Part shown: one piece after another, positions 4,498 to 39,594 of the stretch
Numbering within the stretch: position 1 is the first letter of the stretch
How the letters are laid out: each line of letters opens with the position of its first letter
Assembly: GCA_945881865.1 (NCBI GenBank)
Contig: CAMCVK010000004.1
Span: forward strand, 124,001-188,000
Reading direction: 5' to 3'
Source of the DNA: Fimbriimonas ginsengisoli Gsoil 348
Lineage (GTDB): Bacteria; Armatimonadota; Fimbriimonadia; Fimbriimonadales; Fimbriimonadaceae
DNA length: 64,000 nucleotides
Made by a program: the position numbers and the translations under genes
The notes under the pieces: generated by a model
The model's input: only the letters and a program-made list of their open reading frames with translations
The model's database searches: none
Told to the model about the DNA's origin: nothing

Positions 4498-5507
4498 CCG
4501 CTGCCGCATTTCAGCTAATCTCCCGAAACCAACTTGACCCGCGCCTCATCGCGCAGGTTTACGAGGAAGTCGTCCAAGTCGAAAAGGAACTCAAGATCCA
4601 GGTCGGCTCCACCGTCGAAGTCGTTGAGCGCGTTGGACGCCTCACCCTCGATGCCGGCGGTAAGCGCCTTCGGCCCGCATTTGTGGCCCTGGCCGCAAAG
4701 TCGATCGGCGTTCCGTTCATCGAGTCGCGACTGGTGTTGCTCGGCGCCTGCATGGAGATGATCCATATGGCGACCTTGGTTCACGACGACGTCATCGACA
4801 ACAGCGCCACCCGACGCGGTCGCCCGACCGCCAGCGCCGAGTTTGGCAACACCGCCGCCATTCTCTCCGGCGACGTTCTGCTTGCCAAAGCGATGGCATT
4901 GCTAGCCCGCGACGGCGATCTGGAAGTGATTCGAACCGTCAGCGAAGCGGTGGTGGAAATGGCCGAAGGCGAGGTTCGCGAGCTGGAAGTTCGCGGCGAC
5001 TTCGACCTGGACGAAGCTTCCCACATCGACATTCTGCGACGCAAGACCGCCAGCTTTATCCAGGCTTGCTGCGAAATTGGTGCCCTCACCGCCGGAGCAA
5101 CTCCCGCCGAGCGAACCGCGCTCCGTAGCTACGGCTACCACGTCGGCATCGCCTTCCAGATCGTAGACGACATTCTCGACTACCGGGGCGACAAGTCGAA
5201 GACCGGCAAGGTCATCGGCACCGACTTCCGAGACGGTCAAGCGACCCTGCCGCTGATCTACCTGCGACCGACGCTAAGCGAGGCGGAATCGAAGATTGCG
5301 CGCAAGCGGTTTGGGAATGCGGCGGGCGACGATGAAATCCGCATGATCTCGGATTGGATGGACAGCCGGGGCGCCTACGCGAAGTCGGAAGCCGCCGCCG
5401 ATGCCCATGTCTTGGCCGCAAAGGAAGCCCTCACCGCACTTCCTACTTCGGTGAGCCGGGATCTACTTGAGACCGTCGGCGACTTCGTGCTCCAGCGAAA
5501 CGGGTAA
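4494..5507 (+). CDS. Polyprenyl diphosphate synthase
   Basis: This is a trans-isoprenyl chain elongation enzyme (heptaprenyl/octaprenyl-type) that makes the side chain for quinones. The 337-residue product has the first Asp-rich motif D-D-V-I-D (about residues 98-102, after LVHDD), the second Asp-rich motif D-D-I-L-D (about 223-227, after FQIV), and G-K-R-L-R-P at about 56-61. It is translationally coupled to ubiE through ATGA. Chain length cannot be read reliably from sequence alone. The following HAD gene begins 2 bp after the stop, so the three genes probably form one transcript. Confidence 0.92.
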   Translation: MTAAAFQLISRNQLDPRLIAQVYEEVVQVEKELKIQVGSTVEVVERVGRLTLDAGGKRLRPAFVALAAKSIGVPFIESRLVLLGACMEMIHMATLVHDDVIDNSATRRGRPTASAEFGNTAAILSGDVLLAKAMALLARDGDLEVIRTVSEAVVEMAEGEVRELEVRGDFDLDEASHIDILRRKTASFIQACCEIGALTAGATPAERTALRSYGYHVGIAFQIVDDILDYRGDKSKTGKVIGTDFRDGQATLPLIYLRPTLSEAESKIARKRFGNAAGDDEIRMISDWMDSRGAYAKSEAAADAHVLAAKEALTALPTSVSRDLLETVGDFVLQRNG

Positions 5508-5509
5508 CC

Positions 5510-6253
5510 GTGGCCGCCTACGCCGCCTACGTCTTTGACCTCGACGGAACCCTTTACCGGGGTTCCGAACCGATTCCCCATGCCGTTTCTGCCGTCGAGC
5601 GGGTGATCGGCGAGGGCGCGAAGGTCGTTTACCTCACGAACAACAGCACCCAGACGCGCGGGAGTTTTGTCGCCAAGCTGGGCAAGATGGGCTTCCCCGT
5701 GACCGAGGAGATGGTTTGGAACTCTTCGCTGGGGGCCGCTCTGTATTGCGCGGCGCAGGGATACAAAACCGCCCACGTTCTGGGCGAGGCGGGATTGAAG
5801 CAAACCCTTTCGGAATACGGCATATCCGAAACCACCGGAACGCCGGATGTCGTCATTGTCGGACTCAACCGCTCGCTGACCTATCAAGATATCGCCGAAG
5901 CAAGCGATTGGGTTCGGGCGGGTGTTCCGTTCGTGGCCACCAACCGAGATGCCACGTTTCCGCTGGAAGGTGGCCGATTCATTCCCGGCGCGGGCAGCGT
6001 GGTTGCCGCCGTGGAAACGGCCGGCGGCGTCACCCCGTTCACCGTCGGCAAGCCAAACCCGTACCTTCTGGAGCTGATTTTGGAAACGAACAGATTGGAC
6101 GCGAGTGAAGTCCTAGTCATCGGAGATCGGATGGATACGGACATCGAGGCGGGCCGGCGGGCCGGATGCTCGACGCTGTTGGTGCTGACCGGGGTGGAGT
6201 CTTTCGCCCCTGACGGTCAGACATCCGCGCCGGATCTTCGGCATCTTGCCTAG
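5510..6253 (+). CDS. HAD-IIA family phosphatase (NagD / phosphoglycolate phosphatase-like)
   Basis: The 247-residue product is a haloacid dehalogenase superfamily phosphatase of subclass IIA. Motif I is F-D-L-D-G-T-L-Y at about residues 9-16 (nucleophile D10, acid D12), motif II is the TNNST run at about 43-47, the motif III Lys is in GKPNP (about 182-186), and motif IV is GDRMDTDI at about 204-211. Such enzymes hydrolyse small phosphorylated metabolites (nucleotides, phosphoglycolate, 4-nitrophenyl phosphate); the natural substrate cannot be deduced. The start is GTG, 2 bp after the polyprenyl synthase stop, implying cotranscription. Confidence 0.85.
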   Translation: MAAYAAYVFDLDGTLYRGSEPIPHAVSAVERVIGEGAKVVYLTNNSTQTRGSFVAKLGKMGFPVTEEMVWNSSLGAALYCAAQGYKTAHVLGEAGLKQTLSEYGISETTGTPDVVIVGLNRSLTYQDIAEASDWVRAGVPFVATNRDATFPLEGGRFIPGAGSVVAAVETAGGVTPFTVGKPNPYLLELILETNRLDASEVLVIGDRMDTDIEAGRRAGCSTLLVLTGVESFAPDGQTSAPDLRHLA

Positions 6254-6297
6254 AGGCGGGTACCCTCTGTGCGCTCGGTAACAGGAAAAGTCCAACT

Positions 6298-6735
6298 TTG
6301 ATCGATATCCACAAGATTCTTGAAAAGATGCCCCACCGCTATCCCATGCTGTTGGTGGACCGCATCATTCGATTCGACCCCGAAAAGTTGTCGGGAACCG
6401 GCATCAAAAACGTCACGATCAACGAGCCGCATTTCACCGGCCATTACCCCGAGAACCCCATCATGCCGGGGGTGCTCATCATTGAAGCCATCGCGCAGGT
6501 CTGCGCGGCGACGATGCTGATGACGGACAAGTACGATGGCACGCTGCCGCTGCTGGCTTCGATCGACGACGTCCGCTTCAAGCGCGTCGTGCAACCCGGC
6601 GACCAACTCGTAATTGACGTCGAGCTGGTATGGATTCGTAGTTCTATCGGACGAATGAAAGGCGTGGCCACCGTAGATGGCGAGATCGCCACGAGTTTGG
6701 AACTGACCTTTAAACTGATTCCGCGCAAAGAATAG
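6298..6735 (+). CDS. fabZ: 3-hydroxyacyl-[acyl-carrier-protein] dehydratase FabZ
   Basis: This hot-dog fold enzyme dehydrates 3-hydroxyacyl-ACP in type II fatty acid synthesis. The 145-residue product shows the family's N-terminal block L-P-H-R-Y-P-M-L-L-V-D-R-like sequence (about residues 10-22) and the catalytic region H-F-x-G-H-Y-P-x-x-P-I-M-P-G-V (about residues 44-58), where the His is catalytic. The general-base Glu lies in the following LIIEAIAQ helix. The start is TTG, giving the usual FabZ N-terminus IDIHKIL. It shares one base with lpxA (TAGTG), so the two are translationally coupled. The fabZ-lpxA pairing is typical of lipid A-making bacteria. Confidence 0.95.
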   Translation: MIDIHKILEKMPHRYPMLLVDRIIRFDPEKLSGTGIKNVTINEPHFTGHYPENPIMPGVLIIEAIAQVCAATMLMTDKYDGTLPLLASIDDVRFKRVVQPGDQLVIDVELVWIRSSIGRMKGVATVDGEIATSLELTFKLIPRKE

Positions 6736-7523
6736 TGGCCCAGATTCATCCGCTGGCATGCGTTGACGCGCGTGCAGAACTTGCCGACGACATTGTCGTT
6801 GGGCCTTTTTGCGTCATCGAGGCGGATGTACAGGTGGGCGTCGGTTGCGTGCTCGAGTCGCACGTGGTTCTGAAGTCAGGCCTTCGGATGGGCGACCGAA
6901 ACCACATTGGCAACGGCGCGGTGCTCGGCTCCGACCCGCAGGACAAAAAGTTCCACGGCGAAAACACGTTCCTCATTATCGGCAACGATAACAACATCCG
7001 CGAGTTCGTAACGATGCACCGTGCCTCGGGCGAAGGTATGGCCACCCGAATCGGTAACGATAACTTTTTGATGGGCTTTTGCCACTTTGGACATAACGTC
7101 ACCGTGGAGGACCACGTGACGATGGCCAACAACGTCGGGCTTGCTGGCCACGTGACCATCGAGTCTTACGTGACGATCGGCGGAATGACCGGCATCCACC
7201 AGTTCTGCCGCGTCGGCAAGTCGGCCATGGTAGGCGCAATGTCCCGCATTAATCGCGACGTCCCGCCTTACATGCTTGTGGAAGGCGAGAGCCAAATGGT
7301 GCACGACATCAACGCCGTCGGCCTACGCCGAATCGGCATTAAGCCAGACGCCCGCCTGGCCCTTCACAAGGCATGCAAATTGCTGTTTAAGAGTCAGCTC
7401 GGCTTGCGAAACGCGATGGAAATCGTGCGGCACGAAGTTCCGGTGACGCCCGAAATCGAGTACCTGCTAGCCTTCGAGGAGCGGCGCTACGGCGGCAAGA
7501 ACGGCCGCGGCGACCAGCGCTAG
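6735..7523 (+). CDS. lpxA: UDP-N-acetylglucosamine acyltransferase LpxA
   Basis: This is the first committed enzyme of lipid A synthesis, a cytoplasmic trimer built on a left-handed parallel beta-helix. The 262-residue length is standard. Hexapeptide repeats run through the first 190 residues. The conserved region around the catalytic His reads C-H-F-G-H-N-V-T-V (about residues 116-124), followed by the family's LAGHV and GGMTGIHQF blocks (about residues 136-160) and V-P-P-Y-M. The start is GTG, overlapping the fabZ stop by one base. Its presence indicates an outer membrane with LPS or a related glycolipid. No lpxC, lpxD or lpxB is nearby in this window. Confidence 0.94.
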   Translation: MAQIHPLACVDARAELADDIVVGPFCVIEADVQVGVGCVLESHVVLKSGLRMGDRNHIGNGAVLGSDPQDKKFHGENTFLIIGNDNNIREFVTMHRASGEGMATRIGNDNFLMGFCHFGHNVTVEDHVTMANNVGLAGHVTIESYVTIGGMTGIHQFCRVGKSAMVGAMSRINRDVPPYMLVEGESQMVHDINAVGLRRIGIKPDARLALHKACKLLFKSQLGLRNAMEIVRHEVPVTPEIEYLLAFEERRYGGKNGRGDQR

Positions 7524-33885: not shown

Positions 33886-33902
33886 TTTGTAAAAATAAAA
33901 AG

Positions 33903-33933
33903 CCTCTCCCTTTCGCCCTGCGAGAGGGAGAGG
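33903..33933. repeat. Strong hairpin repeat 1 (CCTCTCCC type)
   Basis: CCTCTCCC and GGGAGAGG arms form a near-perfect stem of about 14 bp with a 3-nt loop, 18 bp after the DUF58 stop. Similar hairpins follow the next three genes. No U-run follows on the plus strand, while an A-run on the left would give a U-run for minus-strand RNA, so terminator function may be bidirectional or weak. Confidence 0.65.
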
Positions 33934-33987
33934 TTGGAGAGGGAGAGTTTGCTAAATCCAGCTCGGAGTATTCGGACCCCCCGCACA

Positions 33988-34053
33988 CTGACCCCTCGTC
34001 TGTGAAACGAAAGAGTGGGTTGAAATTAGCAACAGCATTTCCCTGTCGCTCGA
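33988..34053 (+). repeat. 66-bp duplicated upstream element, copy 1
   Basis: This 66-bp block upstream of the first tandem paralogue recurs at 37719-37784 before the third paralogue with a single mismatch. The sequence on both sides is less conserved. It probably carries promoter or regulatory information that was duplicated with the gene. Confidence 0.85.
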
Positions 34054-34106
34054 TTAGAGGGAAAGAAGAAAAGATTCCAGGCTAGTTTTTGGCCGTCGAT
34101 TCGTTG

Positions 34107-34112
34107 TAGTCT
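34107..34112 (+). promoter_or_regulatory. -10 element TAGTCT placed for a leaderless transcript
   Basis: TAGTCT ends 7 nt before the ATG at 34120. The matching position before paralogue 3 carries TAGCGT at the same distance. Confidence 0.4.
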
Positions 34113-34119
34113 CGTCGTA

Positions 34120-35799
34120 ATGTTTTTTAGATCTGTTCTGACTGCCTTTGTTGCATTGGCGGCCTCGGTTTCTCTAGCCGGACCGCTTCGCCTAGCCACG
34201 AACTTCTTCATGCCTGCCGGGCGAACAAACCCGGTCATCCTCGATGCCAAAGCCGATGCTAGCGGCAACCTCGTAACCGCCGCACAAGCGGACTTCGGCT
34301 CCGGAAAGCAGATCGTCATTACGAAGTTCACCGCCGCCGGAGTGCGACGTTGGTCCAGCACCATCAACACGCCGGTGCCGGTCAGCGCGCCCGGCCAGGT
34401 CGCGGGCAAGTTCCAAATCATGCTGGACGGCTCGGGCAACACGTACGTTCTCTCGCCGCGCGCCGGCAATCCAGACTATCCTGGCTCAAGCGATGATCTC
34501 CTCCTGCGCAAGATTAACGACGGCGGCGCCACGGCCGGCTACCTATCTTTGGTTCGCAACCTTGCCGACAGATCGGGCAAAGTTTTTAGCGTTAAAGCAG
34601 GGCAGATGCAGGCTACGCGAACAAACCTGACCGATCTAGGACTTGTGGTTACCGCGGTAGGCACGGACGGCTTGTCGAGTGCTTTCTTGCTTCGTCTTGA
34701 TGGCAGCGTCTCCGGCTCAAGCTTGAACGTAACAGGGTTTACGTCTATCGACGGCAACATTCAAGACGACGGCAGATACAAGTATACGTATAACTACGCC
34801 GCTGTCGGCTTGACTCCGGGAGGTACGCCCGCTGCGCCACGGATGCGTCTTGTTGTGAGTCAAGAGTCACAGCTGGAATCCTACTTCGAGTCCTACGGTT
34901 ACAGAAATTCGTGGGTGTATTGCTTTGAAGTCGATGTGGACTCTTGGACTACAATTGTTTCAGAAGACGGAAATAGCACGTTCCTCGGAGAACGTCATGG
35001 ATTTCAAGCGGAGGGGCTCGGGTCTTCTGAAGATCAAGAATTGTGTCTCGTACGAGATTCCGGCGGTACTGGCTATATCGCTTGGTTGGGATCCCTATTC
35101 GAGAACCGGGAGCTCTTTACAACGTCTTCCGTGCCCTACTCGGCAACCCGGGTCGGGAGTGACTGGCTGGTTTACGGAGAGCAGGGCGGTGAGTACCTCT
35201 TGAAGTACCCCGCCTCGAACTCTGATCCGTTGGGGCTCTACTTCATCTCACCAGAGATAAGTTACGCGGGTTCGAGCCTTGTTTCTGCTCGTGGCCGCGC
35301 TTATCTTGCCGGTGGCCCCACGGTTGGCGGTGTTCAAGGGATGTATAGTTCCTTTAGCTCGGAAGGTGAGTTGGTGTACTCGGCCGGCCAGAATCAGCCG
35401 TTCACGGTAACGACATCATTCGTTGTTCCTGCGGCAAATAACCGTTTCTGGACGATCGGCAAGACGTCGGCAGGGCTGCAGTCCGTGGTCTTGTGGCGTG
35501 AACCGGACTACTTTGTTGGAATTTCCACTGGGTATGCGTTCGCTGCCGAAAGCACGGTTACGCTGAAAGCTCACCTCAGCACTCCGGCTCCTGCCGGTGG
35601 CTACACGTTCAACGTCTCCGTGAGCTCAAATCTGCAAAATGCGCCACGCACGGTTACGGTCCCGGCGGGCGCCTCGTCGGCAACGTTCACCGTCAAGGTA
35701 AAGAGCACGGCAACGGCCGGTTCGGCGACAGTTGTCGCACGTACCAACGCCACGTACGACATCAACACCGCCCACACGGCGACGTTTAGCATTCGCTAA
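34120..35799 (+). CDS. Secreted beta-rich protein, tandem paralogue A
   Basis: I do not recognise a named family. The 559-residue product has a signal peptide (cleavage near residue 20, after VSLAG). Two SBBP-like beta-propeller motifs follow at about residues 42-85 (D-A-S-G-N-L-V, ending with V-R-R-W) and about 100-145 (D-G-S-G-N-T-Y-V-L). A central region (about 150-385) is unlike its paralogues, and a conserved C-terminal part (about 388-559) contains G-R-A-Y-L-A-G-G-P-T-V and an Ig-like or Calx-beta-like tail ending TFSIR. No membrane anchor or sorting signal is visible, so it is probably periplasmic or released. It is the first of three tandem copies and has the 66-bp duplicated upstream element. 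Confidence 0.85.
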   Translation: MFFRSVLTAFVALAASVSLAGPLRLATNFFMPAGRTNPVILDAKADASGNLVTAAQADFGSGKQIVITKFTAAGVRRWSSTINTPVPVSAPGQVAGKFQIMLDGSGNTYVLSPRAGNPDYPGSSDDLLLRKINDGGATAGYLSLVRNLADRSGKVFSVKAGQMQATRTNLTDLGLVVTAVGTDGLSSAFLLRLDGSVSGSSLNVTGFTSIDGNIQDDGRYKYTYNYAAVGLTPGGTPAAPRMRLVVSQESQLESYFESYGYRNSWVYCFEVDVDSWTTIVSEDGNSTFLGERHGFQAEGLGSSEDQELCLVRDSGGTGYIAWLGSLFENRELFTTSSVPYSATRVGSDWLVYGEQGGEYLLKYPASNSDPLGLYFISPEISYAGSSLVSARGRAYLAGGPTVGGVQGMYSSFSSEGELVYSAGQNQPFTVTTSFVVPAANNRFWTIGKTSAGLQSVVLWREPDYFVGISTGYAFAAESTVTLKAHLSTPAPAGGYTFNVSVSSNLQNAPRTVTVPAGASSATFTVKVKSTATAGSATVVARTNATYDINTAHTATFSIR

Positions 35800-35811
35800 A
35801 ATCGGAAAGCT

Positions 35812-35836
35812 CTTCCCTTTCACTTGTGAGAGGGAA
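35812..35836. repeat. Strong hairpin repeat 2
   Basis: CTTCCCTTTCAC pairs with GTGAGAGGGAAG (one G-T wobble) around a 1-3 nt loop, 12 bp after the stop of paralogue A. It is nearly identical to the hairpin after paralogue B. It probably helps end or stabilise the transcript. Confidence 0.65.
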
Positions 35837-35911
35837 GGGTCGGGTTGGGAGCGCCTTACCAATTTCGACGCAGTCTTGACAGCCGTAGTGTGATTTATAC
35901 ATCATTGATGG

Positions 35912-37624
35912 GTGATCTCTCACAGACTCATCCTTTCTTCGATAGTTGCCCTTGCTGCTTCTATCTCCATCGCCGGACCAGTCCGGTTAGCTACCAGCTT
36001 TTTCATTTCGGCCGGACGAACAAATCCAGTCATTCTTGATGCGAAAGCCGACGCCAGCGGCAATTTGGTGACGGCCGCACAGGTGGACGCAACCGGTGGC
36101 GGAAAACAGATCGTCATTACCAAGTTCACGGCGGCAGGCGTGCGTCGGTGGTCGAGCACGATCAACACGCCGGTTCCGGTGACTTCGCCCGGCCAAGTTG
36201 CGGGCAAGTTCCAAATTATGCTGGACGGCGTCGGAAATACTTACGTGCTGTCTCCCCGAGCCGGCAATCCCGTGATCGCAGACACCACGCAAGATATCCT
36301 CATCCGCAAGCTCAGCGACACCGGGGCCACCGTGGGCTACCTGTCGCTGGTTAGCTACCTGTTCGACCTTACCGGCGATAAGTTTGACGTTTCAAATACG
36401 CAAATGCAGAGCCTTCCTAGCGGACCGGAAGTCGTCGTTGCTTGTACCGCAACCTCCCTTGGTAACCGAGAAACGCTGACATACGCCTTCCTGCTCCGAG
36501 GCGGAGTCAGCGGAACGGCGATCAGCGTGGATGGGGTTCAGTCTATAGCGGGCTTTTACTTTGATTTCGGAGACGGTTCGTTCCACTACACGACCTTTTC
36601 CGCTGCGGGCCTGCTCCCCGGCCAAGTTTCCGCCGACGGTCCGCAGATGCGGCTATTTCTCCAGAGAGAGAGAGCTTACGGCTCCTATCCCGATATCTTT
36701 CGAGAGACGGGTTTTCAAGCTTACAACACAAGAATTACACCTTCGAGTTTCGATCTTGTGGGCGGCAATTGGCGCCCACTTTTTGAGAGTCAGCTCGCAC
36801 CCGATGCGCTGGGCTTCGAAGCCGAGGGTGTCGCATCGGTGGCGGATGAGGGTGTGCTCATGAGCAAAAATGCGAACCTTTCCCGCTATATCAGCCGAGG
36901 CGACGACGATTTGGTGCACAGTTTCGTTGAAGTTCCTTCCACCGTGCCCCACACGGCAACCCGGGTCGGAGATAACTGGCTGGTCTACGGCCATTGGTCA
37001 GGGGGTGAGTATCTTCTGCAATATCCGTCCGTTGGCGACCTAAGGGTAGCGCACACGATAGCCTCCCAAGGGATGGGCGCCCCTTACTACGTTGGCAACA
37101 GTCTGACGTCGTCGCGAGGCCGGGCGTACCTTGCCGGTGGCCCGACGGTTGGCGCTGTTCAAGGGATGTTTAGTTCCTTTAGCTCGGAAGGTGAGTTGGT
37201 GTACTCGGCGGGCCTGAATCAGCCTTTCACACTCGAGACTTCGTTCGTGGTTCCGGCGGCGAACAACCGCTGCTGGACGGTAGGTAAAACCTCGACCGGT
37301 CTGCAAGCCGTGATCCTGTGGAAAGAGCCCGATTACTTTGTGGGCATCTCTGCGGACTATATCGTCCTCCGAGGAAACACGGTTTCGGTAAAGGCCCACC
37401 TGAACACTCCGGCCCCGGCCGGCGGCTATACGTTCCCGGTTTCGGTGACGTCGAAGCTGCAGAACGCTCCCTCCAGCGTCACGATCGCCGAAGGCGAAAC
37501 TTCGGCAACGTTCACCGTCAAGGTGAGGAACAACGCGACGCCGGGCCTAGCGACGGTCACCACTCGAACCAATGCGACCTACGACGTAAACACCGCCCAC
37601 ACGGCGACGTTTAGCATTCGCTAA
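35912..37624 (+). CDS. Secreted beta-rich protein, tandem paralogue B
   Basis: The 570-residue product shares the signal peptide pattern, the two D-x-x-G-N propeller-like motifs (about residues 43-90 and 104-150), and the C-terminal block from G-R-A-Y-L-A-G-G to the terminal TFSIR with paralogues A and C. Its centre (about 155-395) differs in sequence and is slightly longer. The GTG at 35912 is supported by codon-by-codon alignment of the signal peptide with paralogue A. An ATG at 35908 is out of frame although TATACA sits 6 nt before it. The upstream gap is short and lacks the 66-bp element, so this copy may be read through from A or expressed differently. Confidence 0.82.
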   Translation: MISHRLILSSIVALAASISIAGPVRLATSFFISAGRTNPVILDAKADASGNLVTAAQVDATGGGKQIVITKFTAAGVRRWSSTINTPVPVTSPGQVAGKFQIMLDGVGNTYVLSPRAGNPVIADTTQDILIRKLSDTGATVGYLSLVSYLFDLTGDKFDVSNTQMQSLPSGPEVVVACTATSLGNRETLTYAFLLRGGVSGTAISVDGVQSIAGFYFDFGDGSFHYTTFSAAGLLPGQVSADGPQMRLFLQRERAYGSYPDIFRETGFQAYNTRITPSSFDLVGGNWRPLFESQLAPDALGFEAEGVASVADEGVLMSKNANLSRYISRGDDDLVHSFVEVPSTVPHTATRVGDNWLVYGHWSGGEYLLQYPSVGDLRVAHTIASQGMGAPYYVGNSLTSSRGRAYLAGGPTVGAVQGMFSSFSSEGELVYSAGLNQPFTLETSFVVPAANNRCWTVGKTSTGLQAVILWKEPDYFVGISADYIVLRGNTVSVKAHLNTPAPAGGYTFPVSVTSKLQNAPSSVTIAEGETSATFTVKVRNNATPGLATVTTRTNATYDVNTAHTATFSIR

Positions 37625-37634
37625 AATCCAAAAG

Positions 37635-37664
37635 CCCTTCCCTTTCACTTGTGAGAGGGAAGGG
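37635..37664. repeat. Strong hairpin repeat 3
   Basis: CCCTTCCC and GGGAAGGG arms with the same inner sequence as the hairpin at 35812-35836 lie 10 bp after the stop of paralogue B. The intergenic hairpin was evidently duplicated with the genes. Confidence 0.65.
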
Positions 37665-37718
37665 TTGGGTTGGGAGAGTCTGCTAAACCAAGCTCGGAGT
37701 AGTCGTACTCCCCGCAGA

Positions 37719-37784
37719 CTGACCCCTCGTCTGTGAAACGAAAGAGTGGGATGAAATTAGCAACAGCATTTCCCTGTCGCTCGA
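37719..37784 (+). repeat. 66-bp duplicated upstream element, copy 2
   Basis: This block matches 33988-34053 at 65 of 66 positions. A short perfect hairpin GGAGTA-GTCG-TACTCC precedes it (about 37696-37711), while copy 1 has a decayed version. Confidence 0.85.
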
Positions 37785-37835
37785 CGAGAGAGATGCTAAG
37801 AACACTCGGACTAGTTTTTGACGGTCGATTTGCAG

Positions 37836-37841
37836 TAGCGT
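37836..37841 (+). promoter_or_regulatory. -10-like element TAGCGT before paralogue C
   Basis: TAGCGT ends 7 nt before the ATG at 37849, the same spacing as in paralogue A. It fits TANNNT but is a weak hexamer on its own. Confidence 0.3.
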
Positions 37842-37848
37842 AGAAGCG

Positions 37849-39528
37849 ATGCGTTTTAGATCCGTTCTGACTGCCTTGGTTGCCCTGGCAGCCTCCATTT
37901 CCATTGCCGGGCCGGTTCGTTTAGCCACGAGCTTCTTCATTCCCGCCGGACGAACGAACCCAGAGATTCTGGACGCCAAAACCGATGCCACCGGCAGCCT
38001 GGTCATGGCATCGCAGGCGGACAACATCGGTGGCGGAAAGCACATCATCATTACGAAATTCAACGCGGCGGGAGTGCGACGGTGGTCAAGAGCGATCAAC
38101 GCACCGGTCCCGGTGACCGCGCCGGGCCAAGTTGCTGGCAAGTTCCAAATCATGCTGGATGGCGCGGGAAATACCTTCGTTCTCTCGCCCCGCGCCGGCA
38201 ATCCGGACTATCCCGGCACGACGGAAGACCTTGTAATCCGCAAGATCGATGACAGCGGCACCACGGTCGGCAGCCTGTCTCTGGTTCACATCCTTAGGGT
38301 TTTTACCAGCCAAGTCTATGACGTCCTAGACGGTCAAATGCAGATGACCCGAAGAAACTCAACCGACTTCGGAATCGCCGTGACCTTAAGGAATGCGAGC
38401 GGTTTGTTAGGCGTGGCCTTGATGTCCTCCTCCGGTATCGTCAACAGCTCCTTTATATCGGTAACCGATGTGAGAGAGAAACTTGGGGGTGGCTTTTCAG
38501 CTGGGGACTTTAGGGCGACTTTTAACTACAAATTGGTGGGCCTCACTCAGACTGGCACGCCGGCCGATCCTAGGATGCAAGTGGCGATGGACTTCCGATA
38601 TTCCCAGAACCAGCCTTTCCTAAGGTATGCAAATTTGCAGACGTATGCCGCTAACGTCGTACCTGGTTCTACCAGCCTAACTTTTGTCAGCGAGGCAACT
38701 CGTAACGAGTTTGACGCCCGAGCCGAAGGGCTGGGTACTTCTGAGACCCAGAACTTGGTGGTCAGCCGGGAGCCCCTCGGTGGTGGCTATGCCATGCGGT
38801 TGGGGACTGTTTCGTACGAAGTGAATACTCCGGCTTCTTCCGTGCCCCTGACGGCAACCCGGCTAGGGAACGATTGGTTGGTCTATGGCCAGAGCACGGT
38901 GGGAGCCGGTGAGTTCCTATTGAAGTATTCGACCGATGGTGGCGTATCTTCCGGTGCTTACACGATCTCGGATGCGGCAGCCGCGCCCTACTACTCGGGT
39001 GCAAGCCTTGTTGCTTCTCGTGGCCGCGCCTATCTGGCGGGAGGCCCGACGGTTGCGGGCGTGCAGGGACTGTACAGCGCGTTTAGCAGCACCGGCGAAA
39101 AGCTTTACTCGGCCGGAATGACCCAGCCGTTTACGGTGTCGACTTCGTTCGTGATCCCGGCGCCGAACAATCGGTTCTGGACGGTGGGCAAGACCTCGAC
39201 CGGGTTCCAAGCCGTTACGTTGTGGAACGAACCGGAGTACTTCGTCGACCTTTCCGCGCCGTCTTCAGCCGCCCCGGGAAGCACCGTAACCGTGAAAGCG
39301 CAGCTACTCACTCCGGCTCCGGTCGGTGGCTATACGTTCCCGGTTCGGGTCAGCTACCGGCTGCAAGATGCGCCGGCAACGGTCACCGTCCCGGCTGGCG
39401 AGACTTCTGCGACCTTCACCGTTACGGTGAGGAGCACCGCAACCGCCGGTCCTGCGAGCATCACCGCGCAAACGAACACCACCCTGGACATCGACGCCGC
39501 CCACACCGCGAAGCTGAACATCAACTAA
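37849..39528 (+). CDS. Secreted beta-rich protein, tandem paralogue C
   Basis: The 559-residue product is the third tandem copy. The signal peptide, the first 145 residues and the last 170 residues align closely with A and B, including G-R-A-Y-L-A-G-G-P-T-V near residue 391 and the Ig-like tail that here ends KLNIN. The central 230 residues are again divergent. Conserved flanks with a variable core look like a family under diversification or one that accepts new centres by recombination. The ligand or role is unknown. The upstream region matches that of A, so C seems to derive from an A-like unit including its promoter. Confidence 0.85.
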   Translation: MRFRSVLTALVALAASISIAGPVRLATSFFIPAGRTNPEILDAKTDATGSLVMASQADNIGGGKHIIITKFNAAGVRRWSRAINAPVPVTAPGQVAGKFQIMLDGAGNTFVLSPRAGNPDYPGTTEDLVIRKIDDSGTTVGSLSLVHILRVFTSQVYDVLDGQMQMTRRNSTDFGIAVTLRNASGLLGVALMSSSGIVNSSFISVTDVREKLGGGFSAGDFRATFNYKLVGLTQTGTPADPRMQVAMDFRYSQNQPFLRYANLQTYAANVVPGSTSLTFVSEATRNEFDARAEGLGTSETQNLVVSREPLGGGYAMRLGTVSYEVNTPASSVPLTATRLGNDWLVYGQSTVGAGEFLLKYSTDGGVSSGAYTISDAAAAPYYSGASLVASRGRAYLAGGPTVAGVQGLYSAFSSTGEKLYSAGMTQPFTVSTSFVIPAPNNRFWTVGKTSTGFQAVTLWNEPEYFVDLSAPSSAAPGSTVTVKAQLLTPAPVGGYTFPVRVSYRLQDAPATVTVPAGETSATFTVTVRSTATAGPASITAQTNTTLDIDAAHTAKLNIN

Positions 39529-39536
39529 GTTCCAAA

Positions 39537-39571
39537 AATCCCCTCCTTTCGCTCGGCGGGATGAGGGGATT
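39537..39571. terminator. Hairpin between convergent genes, probable terminator
   Basis: AATCCCCTC (39537-39545) pairs with GAGGGGATT (39563-39571) between the stops of paralogue C and the minus-strand HAAS gene. An A-run on the left gives a U-run for minus-strand transcripts, so it best fits termination of the HAAS operon and may act both ways. Confidence 0.55.
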
Positions 39572-39594
39572 AGGGTTGGAGAGGCGCGAGCGAT

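Follow-up and report, generated by a model that had tools for sequence, protein, structure and literature searches.

What do three neighbouring genes encode whose products are closely alike at both ends and differ in between, and how did their centres come to differ? The question is raised by a locus in the 64,000-nucleotide stretch of DNA analysed here (the window). The original prediction, made without database searches, described three tandem secreted paralogues of no named family, with a beta-propeller-like frame and an Ig-like C-terminus, and supposed that their centres had been diversified by duplication and recombination. We compared these genes with their relatives in the same genome and beyond, modelled their products, and weighed the possible reasons for the pattern.

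Three tandem paralogues with conserved ends

An ORF check located the three genes, here termed A1, A2 and A3, where they had been predicted (Table 1). A2 and A3 showed 58–59% overall identity to A1. By inspection, each protein of the trio begins with a typical signal peptide with an A-x-A-like site before AGP, which supports the predicted secretion. The pattern of conserved ends and a divergent centre was confirmed by alignments and region-wise identities, whereas the length of 200–240 residues given for the centre was slightly too long, since about 178–190 residues were measured. The conserved flanks of the divergent part are about 150 residues on one side and 180–220 residues on the other.

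Table 1 Features of the A1–A3 locus, in window positions.
Feature	Position	Strand	Basis
REP-like palindrome upstream of A1	33899..33955	+	repeat searches
A1 upstream region, 84% identical to that of A3 (window 37672-37838)	33940..34110	+	sequence comparison
Paralogue A1, 559 aa: signal peptide, eight-bladed propeller, Ig-like domain	34120..35799	+	ORF, AlphaFold, alignments
A1 signal peptide, residues 1-21, ending in ASVSLA before GP	34120..34182	+	inspection; helix 2-15 in model
A1 conserved velcro strand and blades 1-2, residues 22-150	34183..34569	+	model, region identities
A1 divergent sector, blades 3-5, residues 151-335, long hairpins at 220-254	34570..35124	+	model, identities
A1 blades 6-8, residues 336-464	35125..35511	+	model, region identities
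Probable gene-conversion tract A1/A2, conserved blade 7	35311..35383 (A2 side: window 37136-37208)	+	codon run, DNA comparison
A1 C-terminal Ig-like domain, residues 465-559	35512..35796	+	model; module common in genus
REP-like palindrome between A1 and A2	35806..35861	+	repeat searches
Paralogue A2, 570 aa, GTG start	35912..37624	+	ORF, alignment
A2 divergent sector, residues about 153-342	36368..36937	+	alignment, region lengths
REP-like palindrome between A2 and A3	37631..37686	+	repeat searches
Paralogue A3, 559 aa	37849..39528	+	ORF, alignment
A3 divergent sector, residues about 152-329	38302..38835	+	alignment, region lengths
Diverged REP-like palindrome downstream of A3	39535..39591	+	repeat searches

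Family members in the genome and beyond

Sequence searches of the contigs of the genome (3.23 Mb, 26 contigs, 98% complete), on which the copy counts are based, showed that the trio represents 3 of 16 family copies, 13 intact and 3 interrupted. The predicted expansion by duplication is supported. Group A comprises seven intact genes, of which six (including the trio) lie on contig C4 and the seventh on C6, as well as a broken-frame copy on C17. The six genes of group B stand head to tail (C15:20.4–31.8 kb), the first having an in-frame TAA, and group C consists of one intact gene on C10 and one TGA-interrupted copy at C4:198.9–200.7 kb. Interrupted copies were used for annotation only, with no frame repaired. 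The interrupted reading frames lie at 5205-6923 of locus L054, 2881-4695 of L050 and about 5333 to 7126 of L047. Groups A and B form separate clades (support 99–100).

No full-length relative was found in 19 congeners or in about 300 further genomes of the phylum. A 13-sequence profile of the propeller part matched no other genome of the genus; against 251 phylum-level and 113 order-level genomes, it gave three weak local matches in all. One of these matches was the propeller of a subtilisin-like protease, another proved on inspection to be a stop-interrupted stretch of 66 codons within a locus of type IV pilus/type II secretion genes, and the third lies at locus L097. With a single-sequence query, 40 relatives were matched through the C-terminal domain only. 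Zero relatives were detected in public genome contigs and viral contigs, searched with a single sequence or family patterns, or in plasmids, collections from which entries closely related to this genome may be missing, and a PDB sequence search with the family returned chance-level matches only. In the data at hand, the family is restricted to one species. The absence of a named family was also upheld, as there was no Pfam or NCBIfam match over the curated cut-off and no match in PHROGs.

A predicted eight-bladed propeller followed by an Ig-like domain

The AlphaFold models were made from the 13-sequence alignment only. The A1 model (pLDDT 84.9, pTM 0.83) consists of eight four-stranded blades, the last closed by the velcro strand 23–30, and a seven-stranded Ig-like domain after the propeller. 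Its strand order and its Z scores to solved propellers identify an eight-bladed beta-propeller: VIA-align gave Z 24–28 over 305–342 residues to BamB, Cdc4, Fbw7, YxaL and the designed eight-bladed Tako8 and Cake8. The model of a group B member with about 21% identity has the same architecture, down to the short helix that follows blade 2 (pTM 0.80; Z 22–27 to propellers; centre of low confidence). The models of A1 and of this protein, together with the fold matches, bore out the predicted propeller frame and Ig-like C-terminus. In the A1 model, the strands of blade 4 are unusually long (220–236 and 239–254), which suggests a projecting hairpin. A viral structure search with the model found generic propellers only.

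Blade 1 shows a GN...KF..AG...WS pattern that is familiar from SBBP-type beta-propeller repeats, and the best weak match of the family elsewhere is the C-terminal propeller of the subtilisin-like protease. However, no Pfam repeat model reached its cut-off. Among solved structures, YxaL (PDB 7dxn) is a secreted eight-bladed propeller of the same fold class as A1 (Z 24.6, rmsd 3.7, 316 residues aligned), but the identity is 9% and the match indicates no C-terminal Ig-like domain in YxaL. YxaL of Bacillus velezensis is conserved across a Bacillus species complex (PMC6483160), whereas the present family has expanded in one species. BamB, a lipoprotein that belongs to the BAM complex, is likewise an exported bacterial eight-bladed propeller (Z about 25; 11–14% identity to A1). 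By inspection, the signal peptide of A1 is of the ordinary type with no evident lipobox; A1 also carries the Ig-like domain and is multi-copy. The architecture is of a known kind; the family is new and undescribed, with nothing categorically new about it.

The last 95 residues belong to an Ig-like module that is highly abundant in the genus, where homologous copies were matched at E values down to 1e-11. Elsewhere in the genus, the module forms tandem repeats within proteins, in open frames of up to 3,121 codons, whereas in the present family it occurs once, after the propeller. An Ig-like repeat of about 85 residues (PAPAGG...VPAG..SATFTV) was observed in large proteins of the genus at L021, L024 and many other loci. 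Pfam contained no model for the module at the thresholds used. The proposal that the conserved C-terminus is a common secretion signal was not sustained, because this module recurs internally, in tandem, in other, large proteins of the genus. A C-terminal sorting-domain secretion substrate was likewise rejected, the domain not being restricted to C-termini. The Ig-like domain may act as a spacer or attachment module.

Variation is concentrated in one sector of the propeller

Mean identities among the seven intact group A proteins were 0.72, 0.69, 0.34, 0.22, 0.31, 0.53, 0.66 and 0.73 for blades 1 to 8, and 0.69 for the Ig-like domain; that of residues 22–150 was about 0.7, against 0.22–0.34 for residues 151–335. 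The corresponding values in group B were 0.55, 0.54, 0.28, 0.19, 0.24, 0.20, 0.46 and 0.68, and 0.46 for the Ig-like domain. The divergent centre corresponds to blades 3–5 in group A and blades 3–6 in group B, and the conserved frame to blades 1, 2, 7 and 8 with the Ig-like domain, blade 6 being less conserved. The smoothed identity profiles of the two groups were correlated with a rho of 0.82, compared with a circular-shift maximum of 0.74. Because A and B are separate clades, the same-sector pattern arose or was kept twice, and its independent recurrence in group B indicates that the divergent centre is more than chance. Hydropathy in the centre was kept beyond identity (z -13.5 on divergent columns), indicating that the fold is maintained there. 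Acidic residues account for 11.3% of the centre and 7.0% of the rest of the propeller, the enrichment being found in 13 of 13 proteins; an enrichment of Tyr/Trp in the centre was tested and was absent. GC and GC3 are lower in the centre.

Synonymous divergence is high everywhere (pS 0.54–0.76), and the conserved ends are therefore not recent copies. Omega was 0.14–0.32 in blades 1, 2, 6, 7 and 8 and the Ig-like domain; these conserved ends (omega 0.1–0.3 overall) are under purifying selection. In the centre, dN was 0.7–1.1 compared with 0.17–0.39 in the ends (4–5 times), and omega, obtained only in pairs with measurable dS and with synonymous sites near saturation, was 0.38–0.61. Positive selection is unsupported, as no pairwise omega exceeded 1, and a centre omega of 0.4–0.6 fits diversifying selection and relaxed constraint alike.

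We favour, with a probability of about 0.5, the view that these genes encode secreted binding proteins in which an eight-bladed propeller and an Ig-like domain provide a constant frame for one variable sector. The proteins would leave the cytoplasm through the signal peptide and act in the extracellular space or in association with the surface, where they might bind glycans, polymers or proteins. Blades 3–5, with their long hairpins and more acidic residues, would have diverged fast after duplication while the fold was kept, and the face that they form would give each copy its own specificity.

The main rival is relaxed constraint, according to which these are redundant secreted structural proteins whose blades 3–5 drift while keeping the fold, the other blades and the Ig-like domain being held by a common interaction. 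This explanation is plausible, if somewhat doubtful. It agrees with a centre omega below 1, with the disruption of 3 of the 16 copies, with the retention of hydropathy but not identity in the centre and with the lower GC3 there; the variable sector may be no more than the region of the propeller in which change is tolerated. It accounts less readily for a sector whose sharp limits follow the blades and which reappears in two clades, and for the distinct acidic composition of this sector in every one of the 13 proteins. Extracellular propeller-fold enzymes of the lyase or sialidase kind, their substrate range varied by blades 3–5, were also considered, as the top Foldseek matches include CylK, a bacterial sialidase and PL24 lyases. 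However, the TM-scores were only 0.35–0.45 with large rmsd, and the best Z matches are non-enzymatic eight-bladed propellers. Moreover, few polar positions are invariant across all 13 proteins (R24, R76, R114 and D126), and the propeller contains no invariant His, Glu or Tyr. An enzymatic role is quite improbable.

Recombination and the origin of the divergent centre

The trees of the N-terminal and central parts were mutually compatible (AU p 0.24–0.33), whereas the tree of the C-terminal half conflicted with both (AU p 0.0007–0.026). In blade 7, 12 consecutive polymorphic codons are identical in A1 and A2, which is one of the runs found to be significant within the C-terminal part (p 0.0005, in a test that models rate variation only partly), and about 73 bases there are almost identical, forming the clearest tract common to neighbours. 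Recombination acts on the conserved C-terminal half, probably as gene conversion. The centre aligns, keeps its hydropathy pattern and has the same genealogy as the N-terminal part; it therefore changed in place rather than being exchanged as a cassette. The originally proposed diversification of the centre through recombination was accordingly not borne out.

Cassette diversification, in which recombination brings new centres between conserved ends, might be read from the conserved ends around a divergent centre, the lower GC of the centre and some gene conversion within the family, but it is highly improbable, and cassette exchange is largely excluded, by the agreement of the central with the N-terminal genealogy where the C-terminal half conflicts, by homology and retained hydropathy along the centres, and by codon runs common to paralogues inside the centre of at most 4 codons. 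A diversity-generating retroelement was rejected as the source of diversity, because reverse transcriptase (PF00078) had no match in the 98% complete genome while control genomes were positive.

Palindromes and other features around the genes

Group A genes are flanked by palindromes, CCCTTCCCTTTCACTTGTGAGAGGGAAGGG with the tail TTGGGTTGGGAGAG and variants, often in alternating pairs. REP-like palindromes were also found in alternating clusters at L051, L052, L053 and L054. With a 14-bp stem and alternating clusters, they correspond to REP/BIME elements, that is, short intergenic palindromes in many copies and alternating orientation. All six genome copies of one variant lie beside A1, A2, A4 and A6, and five of the six copies of a second variant beside A5–A8 (reversed controls zero in both cases). 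With a covariance model, 47 matches reached E 0.01 or better when the two strands were counted together; the model was trained on copies beside A genes, and the counts lean that way. Further palindromes were detected by this model at other places in the genome, and congeners without the family contained other subtypes. The palindromes are a REP-like repeat enriched at, not exclusive to, group A genes, and they may have helped the duplication of these genes.

A DUF559-like gene is enclosed by two like palindromes in each of two congeners (L089 2468-2845 and L090 2423-2800), forming a possible mobile unit. A joint movement of DUF559 genes and palindromes was considered but rejected here, as no such palindrome was found within 1.5 kb of the DUF559 genes examined in this genome. 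TTGACA boxes, each with a -10-like box that ends 4–9 bases before the start codon (5–9 bases in the four group A genes), were observed for A2 (window about 35875-35911), A4 (L051), A6 (L052), A7 (L053) and B6 (L047), a spacing which suggests nearly leaderless transcripts. The upstream neighbour of A4 encodes a PEP-CTERM-like protein ending in PEPASMIALGFGAMAMLRRRKK (L051 7745-8590, minus strand).

Implications

Beyond binding in general, the family might form a recognition repertoire of one species, directed at self/non-self, a partner, a predator or phage, with three contiguous blades as a fast-evolving binding face; gene conversion would then help to keep the constant frame uniform. We regard this extension as speculative and rather unlikely.

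The Ig-like repeat carried by these proteins is an unmodelled module that abounds in the genus. One scaffold has expanded twice independently with variation in the same sector each time, which amounts to a replicated natural experiment. If this sector sets specificity, the family shows how a propeller can combine a constant frame with a variable face.
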